Shown: positions 16,149 through 62,740 of the stretch, one piece after another
How positions within the stretch are numbered: position 1 is the stretch's first letter
How the letters are laid out: each line of letters begins with the position of its first letter
Origin: Ignavibacteriota bacterium
GTDB lineage: Bacteria; Bacteroidota; Ignavibacteria; Tepidaquicellales; Tepidaquicellaceae
Direction: 5' to 3'
DNA length: 64,000 bases
NCBI GenBank assembly: GCA_026390735.1
Contig: JAPLFJ010000013.1
Location: forward strand, 1-64,000
Made by a program: the position numbers and the translations under genes
The notes under the pieces: generated by a model
The model's database searches: none
Told to the model about the DNA's origin: nothing
Seen by the model: only the letters and a program-made list of their open reading frames with translations

Positions 16149-16246
16149 ATTTATATAAGGTTATTTAGGATTAATTTTTATGGTTCTTTCCTAATAATCC
16201 GTAAATGCCCTTAAATATCTGATAAAACAGATTTCATATAAAAAGC

Positions 16247-16389
16247 CCACTACAGACACACTACAAGTACACTATTAGTACACTTTTCACGCACTATTCT
16301 TATATTCTCCTTATATTTCACTTATATTCTCCTTATATTCATTGCATATACAATCTATATTAAAGTTATATAGAGACTATACGTAAATA
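16247..16389 (+). repeat. 11-bp-period array, 13 units, core AYAYT
   Basis: Thirteen consecutive 11-bp units with no gaps. Each unit begins with A-Y-A-Y and usually T, followed by six variable bases: for example ACACTATTAGT (16269), ATATTCTCCTT (16302 and 16324), ATATTAAAGTT (16357). The core drifts from ACACT in the upstream units to ATATT in the downstream units. The period is close to one helical turn. The array ends 45 bp before the start of the DUF6266-like gene. Confidence 0.8.
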
Positions 16390-16434: not shown

Positions 16435-17223
16435 ATGGCAAGAATTGTTAATAGTCATCTTGGTATTCCCATAGGGAAAATGGGTGATATTGTTTTTAAA
16501 AGGAGAAATAAGAAGATATTCTCACAGTTTGCTGCTGAAAAATATAAGGAAACCACATCCGAAAGAGTGATTAAAAACCGTGGTTTATTCGGTGAAGTGA
16601 TGGTGTTCTCAAATTTCATTAACCGCTCCCCCGTAATAAAATATATCTGGAGAAAGCGAAAAGATATGCCGGGTAAAGCCACGAATATGAGAATATTTAA
16701 GCAAAATCATCCACACATAAAATCTAAAGGTATTTCATCGCGATGTAGAATTCTTCCTTACAATTTACAAATCTATGAAGCAGCTATAGGTCTCACTGTG
16801 GACTCATTAACATTTTCGTTTAAGAACAGTCATAAAGGTGTTGTTCCCGAATCCTACAACGATTTCAAATCGCCTTTTCTTTTTATTGCCATTATTCATA
16901 TGGAAGAGCCTGTGAATGAAAAAGTAAAGCATAAAATGATGAACATAAAACTTGAGGAAATGCTCTTATCGGGTAAACTTTCTGACTCGGGCTTTACACA
17001 TTTCACTTTTAATACAGCGAAGAAAACTTTTAAGATAATTAAAGATTATAATAAGATTATTGTTTATCCTGCTGTTATTTCGTTTGACGAGTATAAACAG
17101 CCTTACAAATGGGCTGAATGCGGTGGCTTATACGTGAAAGGTGCTGACCGTGTTAATGATCCTCCGCCAAAACCTGACCCTGTTCAAGAGGCAGGTGTGA
17201 GTATTGAGATTGAGTGTAGGTGA
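16435..17223 (+). CDS. DUF6266-like protein
   Basis: A 262-residue protein. The N-terminus (MARIVNSHLGIPIGKMGDIVFKRR, shown here as MARI...LGIPIGKMGDIVF) follows the DUF6266-family pattern of G-x-x-G-K-x-G-x-x-V plus a basic stretch, and then a conserved region of the type T-S-E-R-x-x-x-N. The C-terminal half is beta-rich and ends with a proline-rich linker (DPPPKPDP). No signal peptide and no catalytic motif. A paralogue lies at 48744-49502. Both are preceded by 11-bp-period arrays. Function unknown; family assignment is from pattern memory. Confidence 0.65.
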   Translation: MARIVNSHLGIPIGKMGDIVFKRRNKKIFSQFAAEKYKETTSERVIKNRGLFGEVMVFSNFINRSPVIKYIWRKRKDMPGKATNMRIFKQNHPHIKSKGISSRCRILPYNLQIYEAAIGLTVDSLTFSFKNSHKGVVPESYNDFKSPFLFIAIIHMEEPVNEKVKHKMMNIKLEEMLLSGKLSDSGFTHFTFNTAKKTFKIIKDYNKIIVYPAVISFDEYKQPYKWAECGGLYVKGADRVNDPPPKPDPVQEAGVSIEIECR

Positions 17224-33079: not shown

Positions 33080-33294
33080 TTCTCTGTGAATTATAAAGAT
33101 GATTTTAAAATAATAAATAATATAAAGTTTTTCTCTGTGTTCTCCGTGACTACTCAGTGGTCTCTGTGAACCGGAATAATTGATGAAGTTTTTCTCTGTG
33201 AACTCTGTTAAATATAAAATGAATATAAATAATATATATAATAAAGTTTTTCTCTGTGTTCTCTGTGACTACTCTGTGGTCTCTGTGAACCTAA
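33080..33294 (+). repeat. CTCTGTG-type repeats, cluster right of the GxxExxY gene
   Basis: Two full copies (33126-33174 and 33246-33294) and two partial ones (about 33080-33090 and 33187-33209), each introduced by AAAGTTTTTCTCTGTG-type sequence and ending TGGTCTCTGTGAACC. All are in plus orientation, opposite to the copy at 32647. They occupy the whole gap before nuoF. Confidence 0.88.
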
Positions 33295-46549: not shown

Positions 46550-48064
46550 TTATCTTTTTGCCTTTTCTGTGTTTTTCATTCTTTCTTCTATCTTATTCAA
46601 TATCCATTTACGCATTGCAAATCTTCTGTCGGATAGTATTTTCTTATTTAGTATTGCATATTCTGTTATGTCTTTTTCTGACGAATAAATTTTCTCTGCA
46701 TTGTTCAGCATCCTGAAATAATCAAGCATTAAGTTGTAACTTTCTTTGTCGTTCTTTGTAAACAATTCCTCCTTCTGTATTATATCTCTGTAATTGTGAA
46801 GCACTTTTTCCATTGCCTCATAGTTCTTCGTTTCAAAGTATATTTTCAGTTCAAGGTTCAGTATATCATATTTGTAAATAAATTTTGTATTACCTAATGT
46901 GATTATATTCTTCATCGCTTTTCTGTAATCCCGGTTAAGGAAATTGTAGAATGCATTTCCATATTCCTGCATTTCCTTCCTGTGCGACGGATGTATGAAT
47001 TTTATCTGTTCCTCTGTAAATTTTCTCAGAAGTCTTTTCTTTTCGGGTGTGGTACAGGTTATTACAAAGTTCCTGAAATTTAAAGGCAGAAGATACTTCT
47101 TTGTCTCGCTCGTGTACATCTTGTTTACTATGTATTCATAAATAAGTTTATGACCTTCTTCAGTGTATTTATTAGTTTTATCGTTTAGTCTTTGTCTCAG
47201 ATTACAGTAATTATGCAGTACAGATAAATGTGTCTTTGTAAAATCTGTGTTGAATAGTTTTCTTACGCTGTAAAAATACTTCTTGTATTCGCCGTAAGCT
47301 TTGTCATTATTAAGGTCATTGAATAATATGTAAAGCCTTTTGTAAGTTCCTATAAGTGCCTGTTGGTGTTTATCAAATGTTTTAAGTTCTTTGCTGCCTA
47401 CAGCGTCAAATAAATTCTTCATCTCAAGTGGAAACAGCATCGGGAACTTGTAACTCGAGTCTATACTCTGGGTAATGGAATTTATATAGTTAAATGTAAC
47501 CTGTGCAAGTGTGAATATGTACAAGTCCTTTGCCGAATCAAGTGTGTGATTATGCTGGTCTATTGAACATTCATCACCTCTTACTTTAGAATTCGTATCA
47601 ATTGATGTGCAGTAACTTGCATAGTCATAATGGTAATAGTCCAGATATTTTGTTTCGTCATTTTCTTCTTTTTCCTTCTGTATCAGTTTACTATAATCAA
47701 TTATGTGCTTTTTCATTAATGAAAAGTATCCCTTTGAAAGCAGATATTTATTATACAGATTCTCTGAATTAAGTTTATCAGCTTCAATCGCCTTAACCTT
47801 CATATAATTAATAGCAATATCACCTAGGTTCGATATCAGCTTTCTTGTAGTACCTTCCGAACATTTCTGCGAACTCATAATTCTGTCCTTCAGCAGTGAA
47901 TATTGCTTCTTAGTAATAAGGTTTTTGTTCTTCCTGATAACCGAGAATATCTCTACATAGGATTGTAAATTATTATAATAAGGCGACTTCAAAAACTTCT
48001 CAAACTGCGTGTAGTCCTCCGAAGAAAAGTATTCAAGATGGTGAAACAACTCAGGTATTTTCAT
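46550..48064 (-). CDS. Large helical protein of unknown function
   Basis: A 504-residue soluble protein made almost entirely of helices, rich in Lys, Tyr and Asn, with an N-terminus (FHHLEYFSSEDYTQFEKFLKSPYYN) that I have seen in Ignavibacteria and Bacteroidota hypotheticals. The repeated helix pairs suggest a TPR- or HEAT-like solenoid, but no clear motif repeats. No signal peptide. It is divergent from the DUF6266-like gene across a 680-bp gap. Confidence 0.65.
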   Translation of the reverse strand: MKIPELFHHLEYFSSEDYTQFEKFLKSPYYNNLQSYVEIFSVIRKNKNLITKKQYSLLKDRIMSSQKCSEGTTRKLISNLGDIAINYMKVKAIEADKLNSENLYNKYLLSKGYFSLMKKHIIDYSKLIQKEKEENDETKYLDYYHYDYASYCTSIDTNSKVRGDECSIDQHNHTLDSAKDLYIFTLAQVTFNYINSITQSIDSSYKFPMLFPLEMKNLFDAVGSKELKTFDKHQQALIGTYKRLYILFNDLNNDKAYGEYKKYFYSVRKLFNTDFTKTHLSVLHNYCNLRQRLNDKTNKYTEEGHKLIYEYIVNKMYTSETKKYLLPLNFRNFVITCTTPEKKRLLRKFTEEQIKFIHPSHRKEMQEYGNAFYNFLNRDYRKAMKNIITLGNTKFIYKYDILNLELKIYFETKNYEAMEKVLHNYRDIIQKEELFTKNDKESYNLMLDYFRMLNNAEKIYSSEKDITEYAILNKKILSDRRFAMRKWILNKIEERMKNTEKAKR

Positions 48065-48743
48065 AAATAAGGTAAATTATTTATTTTTCTTATGGAAATA
48101 TATTAAATAATCTTTCAACAAAAAATATAAAAAGAAAATAGGATGAGTTCGGTTATATAATTTTAGAAAAATGTATTTCCAATCCCCGAAATATTGAATG
48201 TAATGTTCGTAACAGGGATGGTTTCTAAAATCAATATGGGAGTATTTCGTTTACCCTCCACCAATCTATTCATGTTTTTCAAGCTCCGTCCTCCCTCCAA
48301 ATAAGAAGCTTCCGTTACCATTTCGCAAATACAATAGTCACATAACTACTATTATATCTTAGAAATGAATAGTCGCGCCACTTTGATTTTGTTCAATAGG
48401 AATGAAGAATCATCTCTGTATACCTTCATCTATATACCTAACGCCAGTGTGGAGTATGTCTAACCTAACTTCCAATACGCTACGAATACGTTACCAATAC
48501 GTCACTAATACGCTTTTTTCTTGATTCTTTTTTTGAAAGGCTGTTTTCGGACTTTTTGGAGGAGGAGGACAGCATCTGTGTGCTCGTCAGGGTTTTCCCT
48601 CTCCGGATTTCTATGAGTACAAAGATAATAAAACATCCTTGCATTGTCAAGTCATTTTTGAAAAAATATTTTCGCTTGGCTGCATTTTTATCATTCATTC
48701 GAGAATACTAATTCGCTATTTTCACAGAAATAAACAATTTGCT
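48065..48743. other. Long divergent intergenic region
   Basis: About 680 bp between a minus-strand helical-protein gene and the plus-strand DUF6266-like gene. The only clear structure is the 11-bp-period array at 48474-48517. The stretch after it is T-rich and then has a purine-rich segment (GGAGGAGGAGGA near 48560). In-frame extensions of the DUF6266-like gene into this region are not protein-like. Confidence 0.6.
48474..48517 (+). repeat. 11-bp-period array, 4 units, core AATACG
   Basis: AATACG occurs at 48474, 48485, 48496 and 48507, exactly 11 bp apart, each followed by five variable bases (CTACG, TTACC, TCACT, CTTTT). A weaker unit may precede it. The array lies about 230 bp upstream of the DUF6266-like gene and parallels the array before its paralogue at 16435. 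Confidence 0.8.
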
Positions 48744-49502
48744 ATGGCACGTTTCGACAGCGGTGTTCTCGGATTTCTAAAAGGCAGAATCGGCACTATA
48801 GTTGCCCGTATGAGGTATGGCGAAGTTTATATCTCGCCAAAAGCCCTTAAATACAACATTAAGAGTGAAAAACTTAAATTTGCCCAGAAGGTCTTCGGAA
48901 GAAGGCAAAGACTTAATACTCAACTTCGTAAAGATAAAAAGATTCAGGAGTTCTGGAAGTCTATTGAGGTTGATGGTAAGAATGGTAATATGAAACTTAT
49001 GAAAAGAAATCAACCTTTCGTTACTTATGAACGCATCCTGCCCGGCTGCGGTTTCACTCCCCAAAGCGAAAATAAAATCATCGTTAAGGATTTGCATTTC
49101 GATGTACATGATATTGTCTTTGATTTTAAACTCGAACGTGCCAATCCCAAAAAACTCGAGCCGCCATATGAAGTCTTCAGCATTCTGATGCTCGATAGAC
49201 ATTTAGATAATACAGGAATGGGTCTTAGAAGGTATAGTACTTTTTATGGCGAGACCGTTTCCCTTACATTTGAAAATGAACAACATGATTCATTTCAGAC
49301 TTTCAGACATCTCTACATTGACTCTGTGCACAACAGAATGTACCATGCAGAAAGAGCATACATTCTCATTGCTGCAATCAAATTCAATGAACTGAAGAAT
49401 AAATACGAATGGACTGACACTTACTTCCAGGAGCTCCAAAACCACATCCCAGAAAACAAAATAATCAAATGGGACACCCGCATATACAAATTCTACGATT
49501 GA
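48744..49502 (+). CDS. DUF6266-like protein, second copy
   Basis: A 252-residue protein from the ATG of MARFDSGVLGFLKGRIGTIV; the longer frame from 48639 is rejected because it is hydrophobic nonsense. The N-terminal G-x-x-G-x-x-x-G-R/K-x-G-x-x-V pattern followed by basic residues matches the gene at 16435. The middle part has conserved-looking K-x-x-F-A-x-x-V-F-G-R-R. The C-terminal half is beta-rich. No catalytic motif, no signal peptide. Sequence identity to the first copy is low outside the N-terminus. Confidence 0.62.
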   Translation: MARFDSGVLGFLKGRIGTIVARMRYGEVYISPKALKYNIKSEKLKFAQKVFGRRQRLNTQLRKDKKIQEFWKSIEVDGKNGNMKLMKRNQPFVTYERILPGCGFTPQSENKIIVKDLHFDVHDIVFDFKLERANPKKLEPPYEVFSILMLDRHLDNTGMGLRRYSTFYGETVSLTFENEQHDSFQTFRHLYIDSVHNRMYHAERAYILIAAIKFNELKNKYEWTDTYFQELQNHIPENKIIKWDTRIYKFYD

Positions 49503-62074: not shown

Positions 62075-62098
62075 AGTATAACTTTATTCATTTTTCTC

Positions 62099-62129
62099 TT
62101 GACATTTAATTATAACATAGTTATGTTTG
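62099..62129 (+). promoter_or_regulatory. Strong promoter in the post-flippase gap
   Basis: TTGACA is followed after 17 bp by TATGTT, which extends to TATGTTTG. It therefore satisfies both the sigma-70 pattern and the Bacteroidota TAnnTTTG pattern. No ORF follows before the terminator at 62180. Confidence 0.65.
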
Positions 62130-62134
62130 TAATA

Positions 62135-62217
62135 GATGGATGAGATAAAATAAGAATTACCCTTTCTTATTTAAAACCAATCCGGTTGCCGCCAAAAGCC
62201 AACCGGATTTTTTTATT
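62135..62217 (+). ncRNA. Candidate small RNA
   Basis: A strong promoter (62099-62129) and a strong terminator (62180-62216) define a transcript of about 80 nt without an ORF. The body (from about 62136) is purine-rich and then CCCTTTCTTATTT-like; the 3' end is the terminator stem. No homology can be judged. Confidence 0.45.
62180..62216 (+). terminator. Rho-independent terminator
   Basis: AATCCGGTTG and CAACCGGATT form a perfect 10-bp stem around an 11-nt loop, followed by seven T. It may end both the glycan operon and the short transcript from 62135. Confidence 0.88.
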
Positions 62218-62568: not shown

Positions 62569-62579
62569 GAAATGAAGTC

Positions 62580-62634
62580 ATAATGGAGGTATAATGGACT
62601 CATAACGGAGTCATAATGGAGTCATAATGCACTC
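62580..62634 (+). repeat. 11-bp-period array, 5 units, core ATAATG
   Basis: ATAATG or ATAACG occurs at 62580, 62591, 62602, 62613 and 62624, exactly 11 bp apart, each followed by five bases (GAGGT, GACTC, GAGTC, GAGTC, CACTC). A weaker unit precedes at 62569. No DUF6266-like gene follows; the next sequence can be read as a basic 47-codon frame without a start codon (62635-62779). Confidence 0.8.
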
Positions 62635-62740
62635 AAGAAGAAAAAAAGACCATCGATTAGGCATTTTGGGGTAAAAAGTGGATATGAAGTGGGACGCAGA
62701 ATATTAGAAAAGGAGAGCAATTATTCTGAATACCGAGAAC

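Follow-up and report, generated by a model that had tools for sequence, protein, structure and literature searches.

Putative cognate pairs of DUF6266-like proteins and 11-bp-phased arrays in an Ignavibacteriota genome

Features of the locus

The DNA analysed was a 64,000-nucleotide stretch of an Ignavibacteriota bacterium genome (contig JAPLFJ010000013.1 of assembly GCA_026390735.1, positions 1 to 64,000), referred to here as the window, and its relevant features are collected in Table 1. The array upstream of the gene at 48744 reads AATACGctacg, AATACGttacc, AATACGtcact and AATACG, with spacings of 11, 11 and 11 bp, and is separated from the ATG by 231 bp. The original prediction, made from the letters of this stretch, had placed four AATACG words here exactly 11 bp apart, each followed by five variable bases, and had given the array of the other window paralogue the same period with a different core; both descriptions are borne out by the sequence. 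A three-unit pattern, searched with up to 3 mismatches, matched the window twice, both times inside this array, and in 100 dinucleotide shuffles of the window the mean was 0.10 matches and none reached 2. The orthologous array in a second genome (G004, locus L051) retains four units and the TACGNNAC core.

Scanning the 64-kb window at lags 7-25 returned three lag-11 segments (16246-16381, 48469-48512 and 62571-62649) and no segment at lag 10 or 12; a tandem segment of period 9 (33194-33287, score 20) was also seen. The third lag-11 segment, which the original prediction had missed, adjoins no family gene, and its core and flanking T-rich box are those of a paralogue array on contig 35 (G000:C35:154308-154994). 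An Hsp20-like gene lies approximately 285 bp downstream of it. Elsewhere, at 62098-62215, a TTGACA-17-TATGTTTG promoter precedes, by no more than approximately 100 bp, a strong terminator hairpin (AATCCGGTTG...CAACCGGATTTTTTT), and the two mark a candidate small RNA.

Upstream of the locus, positions 46550-48064 encode a 504-aa protein that starts MKIPELFHHLEYF and has no family match. A close paralogue of this protein (L232) occupies the same relative position beside the family gene of contig 28, which suggests a larger duplicated segment. For an empty-site comparison, a gene flanking the window locus was found conserved in three relatives that have no family member, and no precise junction could be drawn.

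Table 1. Coordinates of features in the window
Feature	Position	Strand	Remarks
Array of the other window paralogue	16246..16381	+	Period 11; about five units with core ACACTA, followed by TATATTC units
Second DUF6266-like paralogue	16435..17223	+	262 aa
Array upstream of the 48744 gene	48474..48512	+	Four AATACG units with 5 variable bases; period exactly 11
Conserved A-tract box adjoining the array	48513..48545	-	...CTTTCAAAAAAAGAATCAAG... on the minus strand; shared by four cis loci and four gene-less copies
Leader segment	48559..48608	-	Hairpin-forming in related loci, where differing sequences preserve the stem; weak here
Divergent promoter-like site	48622..48650	-	TTGACA-17-TATCTT; faces away from the gene, ~100 bp from the array
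Candidate gene promoter	48644..48672	+	TTGTCA-17-TATTTT; -35 overlaps the -35 of the divergent site; consensus match only
DUF6266-like protein gene	48744..49502	+	ATG start; 252 aa
Orphan array	62571..62649	-	Units T[CG]CATTATGAC on the minus strand

The protein family

The genome of the window (4.02 Mb, 69 contigs) contains 40 related genes, a second genome of the genus 25, and one genome of the same taxonomic family a single gene; the search gave no match in three other genomes of the genus or in 33 further relatives. NCBIfam yielded no match for the family, PHROGs nothing consistent and PADLOC models of known anti-phage defence systems no match to the four family members tested. The Pfam DUF6266 model (PF19781) likewise gave no match above cut-off for the window proteins or 20 paralogues, and filing of the window gene as DUF6266 by Pfam was accordingly ruled out. 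By profile comparison with hhalign, residues 1-94 of the 48744 protein are homologous to true DUF6266 (probability 98, E 8.5e-14; GxxxGKVGxxV...), whereas its C-terminal half could not be aligned. The relationship to DUF6266 seen in this comparison is confined to the N-terminal half.

An AlphaFold2 model (pLDDT 84.5) predicted an N-terminal three-stranded sheet with three helices, followed by an Ig-type beta-sandwich. The N-terminal model was not recognisable as any known DNA-binding fold, and its fold search gave no Foldseek match with E below 1 and a best Z of 2.6. A likeness to AP2 or KOW domains, considered for the N-terminal sheet, was unsupported, the best PDB sequence match being a ribosomal protein at E 0.11. 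The C-terminal half matched generic Ig/FN3 sandwiches (best Z 6.4 over 96 residues, 2.6 A) and gave no functional lead. Charge is distributed unevenly: over 61 proteins, mean net charge was +12.9 for residues 1-95 and -4.4 for the remainder, and over 80 Flavobacteriia proteins the corresponding values were +9.9 and -7.5. In an alignment of 57 sequences M1, G14, W71 and P106 are invariant and G10, G17 and F51 nearly so, with no conserved His pair or Tyr that would form a catalytic pattern.

Arrays upstream of family genes

Upstream regions from the genome of the window and two relatives were scored for lag-11 arrays, a segment being called significant when it was reached by none of 200 shuffles. 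Significant arrays were present in 45 of 62 regions, lag 11 was the best of lags 6-30 in 39, and none of ten second genes in tandem pairs had one. The arrays comprise 4-13 units, and nearly every paralogue or close paralogue group has its own core, including AATACG (the 48744 gene), TGCGGT, GCCTTCAA, ACCGTTATT, CCATCGG, TGCATTAT and GCGGGGTGA. At L046, L034, L059, L045, L061 and L053, the upstream region carries a pair of 11-bp arrays that adjoin each other and differ in core.

Among true DUF6266 genes of Flavobacteriia, which were identified independently, 68 of 79 loci had an 11-bp array upstream (p below 0.01 against mononucleotide shuffles), built on the core CCGAAG or CCGAAC plus its inverse. 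Spacings between same-strand cores were 11 (201 times), 22 (23 times) or 33 (4 times) and never 10 or 12; control regions held 15 spacings, none of them at 11. Many of these arrays have two arms, one of four inverted and one of four forward units, which lie 22 bp from each other on a single 11-bp grid, and the core is conserved across genera, not private. Between the 11-bp array and the gene, 50-110 bp upstream, lies a second array (L122-L201) of GGTCAAAACC or TGGACAANN type with a period of exactly 10 and 4-13 units, which gives the best lag in 62 Flavobacteriia loci. In Chryseobacterium the candidate gene promoter is downstream of the arrays, which form inverted pairs. Among the places read in Chryseobacterium gregarium there is one intact DUF6266 gene, and approximately ten CCGAA arrays sit beside frameshifted DUF6266 remnants, the arrays remaining regular while the genes decay. 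Blocks of 100-200 bp are repeated several times upstream of arrays in the same species (L320:1-2126, L322, L325). In the window family and in Flavobacteriia alike, most homologues thus carry an array, in keeping with the original prediction.

Core similarity was correlated with N-terminal identity (Mantel r 0.25, p 0.0005, 44 loci), so that the link between core word and protein subtype expected earlier does exist in weak form. Taken alone this correlation is weak evidence, because C-terminal identity yields an r of 0.19 as well and common descent alone could account for both. Stronger evidence for a link between core and protein is the occurrence of arrays in trans that carry the core of one particular distant paralogue.

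Gene-less arrays

In an unbiased scan covering 0.8 Mb of the genome of the window, 18 lag-11 segments were found against 1 at lag 10. Five of the 18 were near family genes and 13 were not, although a few of the latter are of low complexity and may not be real arrays. A 0.4 Mb sample of a genome of the same genus in which no family gene was found contained no lag-11 array. Thirteen orphan arrays, including that at 62571-62649, were then compared with 47 gene-linked arrays, using 60 permuted controls for each. For eight of the 13, similarity to a gene-linked core exceeded that of every one of the 60 permuted versions, the partners including L031 (twice), L050, L036, L034, L037 and L076, in part at a similarity below some of the nulls for other arrays; the other five had no clear partner among the 47. 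Gene-less copies of the TGCGCCA array, which belongs to the contig-28 gene, were found at three more places in the genome and once in a relative, and in the gene-less copies L102-L105 the promoter, hairpin, box and array are all retained. Three orphans (L241:4919, L245:11532 and L255:10309) have a common core, AGAGACCAA, to which no family gene could be assigned.

Within the scanned 0.8 Mb, 6 of 12 orphans occupy convergent spacers, at 67-156 bp from the stops, compared with a convergent share of 15% among spacers 150 bp or more in length (binomial p 0.005; orientations from simple ORF calls). One orphan, with core GCCTTCAA and behind a 471-aa gene, recurs with its core unchanged at the corresponding convergent site of a second species, and between the two genomes the array is better conserved than the sequence on either side of it. 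In three relatives that lack the family, the stretches surrounding the matched flanking genes contain no array. At another convergent site (L251:7114-7229 and L312:1352-1401), two related species have arrays of different cores, an outcome that a fixed anchoring role does not predict.

Promoters and leader hairpins

Promoter-like sites of the TTGACA-17-TATATT type lie 82-103 nt before the array, on either strand, in most loci having one. The arms of the leader stem paired better within a locus than when arms were swapped between loci (permutation p 0.0005, with search regions chosen after the stems had been seen). RNAalifold on a MAFFT alignment missed this stem owing to misalignment, and Rfam gave no match above the gathering score in 10 loci, with a few weak matches far below it. 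In six loci the last array unit overlaps the -35 of a candidate gene promoter with 17-bp spacing. Near six orphans between convergent genes promoter scores were at noise level, and some of these orphans are bordered by terminator-like hairpins.

Interpretation and alternatives

The reading we prefer, at a probability of just under 60%, is that DUF6266-like proteins and their arrays are cognate pairs of a putative DNA-binding protein and arrays of its own binding sites. The conserved basic N-terminal domain would recognise its own core of approximately 6-8 bp, one molecule per 11-bp unit, and since sites at exactly 11 bp recur about once per helical turn, the molecules would line up on one face of the DNA in a nucleoprotein assembly. 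The protein may polymerise, and the Ig-like C-terminal domain could make contacts between molecules or with partners. Binding of the cis array would let the protein control its own transcription; such autoregulation is likely, given that arrays occur in front of first genes only and reach into the -35 in six loci. Gene-less arrays with the same core would act in trans, and many of them lie between convergent genes, a position in which an ordinary promoter operator cannot function. Chromosome assembly or anchoring points, or a spreading repeat family kept by its protein, appear more likely roles. The exact spacing, the private cores in the genus of the window, the same-core copies in trans, the retention of one trans array by a second species and the charge pattern are the grounds on which we infer N-terminal core binding with one molecule per 11 bp. 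Action at the DNA level, autoregulation and a chromosomal role are likewise proposed from the sequence. The two-part system suggested originally, a protein with its cognate array, is well supported as a pattern by the arrays and the trans cores; a simple pairing of each protein with a single private array does not give the whole picture, given the trans arrays, the array-less second tandem genes and the Flavobacteriia core shared across genera.

A wider version of the cognate-pair reading would make the arrays a genome-wide code of dozens of mutually private pairs, in which each protein polymerises on its own 11-bp-phased arrays, cis arrays serve autoregulation, trans arrays between convergent genes serve as anchors or insulators, specificity diverges as paralogues multiply, and sites switch their private core between species. 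We regard this version as tentative and on balance doubtful.

Several other explanations would account for parts of the pattern. A mobile repeat family comparable to REP-RAYT, with gene plus array as the full element and orphans as non-autonomous copies that spread or were left after gene decay, would explain why same-core orphans share 60-145 bp, beyond single units, why regular arrays outlast the frameshifted genes of Chryseobacterium gregarium, and why the distribution is so patchy, from 40 copies and 25 in two genomes of the genus to none found in three. The invariant residues, however, include no conserved catalytic ones, no element ends or target duplications were noticed, and phage and plasmid collections contain no match to the family; we consider mobility of this kind rather unlikely. 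An ordinary autoregulated transcription factor with a regulon, its orphans being operators of other genes, fits the placement of arrays upstream of first genes only, the -35 overlaps and those orphans that do precede genes, such as that at 62571 (Hsp20-like gene) and L264:14097 (72 bp before a gene). It is an improbable account all the same, for convergent genes flank half of the scanned orphans, a setting that offers no promoter to act on, and the neighbours of the orphans have no common function. Neutral minisatellites lying near these genes by chance can hardly be the answer: slippage does generate short tandem repeats, but here the core and the 11-bp step persist although half of every unit is variable, lag 11 exceeds lag 10 by 18 to 1, the sampled part of a relative without the protein has no such array, and cores are shared in trans.

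The array might instead work as RNA, a promoter approximately 100 nt away producing a leader hairpin followed by 11-nt repeats, with the protein binding the word in the transcript and the gene-less copies being small RNA genes. Several gene-linked arrays suit this reading, as a strong promoter and a covarying leader hairpin precede them, and the stems kept by different sequences and the complete copies L102-L105 agree with it. A purely RNA-level reading was favoured for a time and was lowered because of the orphans that lie between convergent genes without promoters; the downstream promoter and inverted arrays of Chryseobacterium and the lack of an Rfam match in the 10 loci also weigh against it, and we now judge it unlikely. 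Type III toxin-antitoxin systems, with a repeat RNA before the toxin, were rejected, as the units are far too short and the arrays occur on either strand relative to transcription. We favour action at the DNA level, with a transcript possible at some loci, because of the helical-turn period, the inverted arrays, the arrays upstream of or overlapping promoters and the promoter-less convergent orphans.

Relation to known systems

The protein-array pairs resemble REP-RAYT repeats and ParR-parC iterons by analogy, and membership in neither is claimed. In plasmid R1, ParR-parC has 11-bp iterons. OmpR/PhoB-type and SARP regulators use 11-bp-spaced direct repeats upstream of the -35. REP-RAYT (TnpA-REP) systems are alike in that their repeats are extragenic and dispersed, form several families per genome, each associated with a protein gene of its own, and are patchily distributed within a genus (PMC3116915, PMC8266576); dispersed extragenic repeats cognate to a protein gene are present here too, as orphans with paralogue cores. 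REP sequences, however, are single palindromes of 20-40 bp (PMC3733652), in contrast to the 11-bp direct or inverted arrays described here, and the HUH motif and catalytic tyrosine of RAYT are absent from the conserved residues of the present family, whose members consist of a basic domain and an Ig-like domain. With ParR-parC the pairs share several direct repeats beside the protein gene, which in ParR-parC form the binding array, and a private protein-site specificity, ParR specificity classes being described for Clostridium perfringens (PMC9426499). Unlike ParR-parC, the present genes are chromosomal, reach 40 copies per genome and are not modelled as a small ribbon-helix-helix protein; at the loci read by eye there was no ParM-like actin-like neighbour, and the protein has no recognised fold.

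The likeness to OmpR/PhoB-type and SARP regulators lies in direct repeats one helical turn apart and in the -35 overlap in six loci, SARP heptamers being treated in PMC5930380. The present arrays differ in their 4-13 units, private cores per paralogue and gene-less occurrence between convergent genes, and no known regulator domain was found. Arrays of the TAACTGA heptamer, reported from Beggiatoaceae, Cyanobacteria and some Bacteroidetes (PMC4679880), are likewise patchily distributed sets of many intergenic short-word arrays, but they use the same heptamer in all sets, lie mostly near start codons and have no linked protein family, whereas spaced cores of many kinds occur here. DUF6266 itself is related through the homologous N-terminal 94 residues and through the arrays of its Flavobacteriia members, while the window proteins are not captured by the Pfam model and differ in their C-terminal half. 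A full-text literature search, whose coverage excluded most subscription papers, returned no paper naming DUF6266, and a search of the same coverage for similar arrays returned different systems only. A protein with iterated sites is a known principle; dozens of private pairs within one family, accompanied by gene-less trans arrays, are new as far as we could find.

If each protein does read its own core, the family would be a natural source of dozens of protein-DNA recognition pairs, each distinct from the others and all based on a single small domain, and their trans sites could be tested individually. A function would then be available for the widespread uncharacterised DUF6266, and a partner for a class of intergenic arrays in Bacteroidota. 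The arrays between convergent genes would in that case bear on whether bacteria use many site-specific chromosome anchors.
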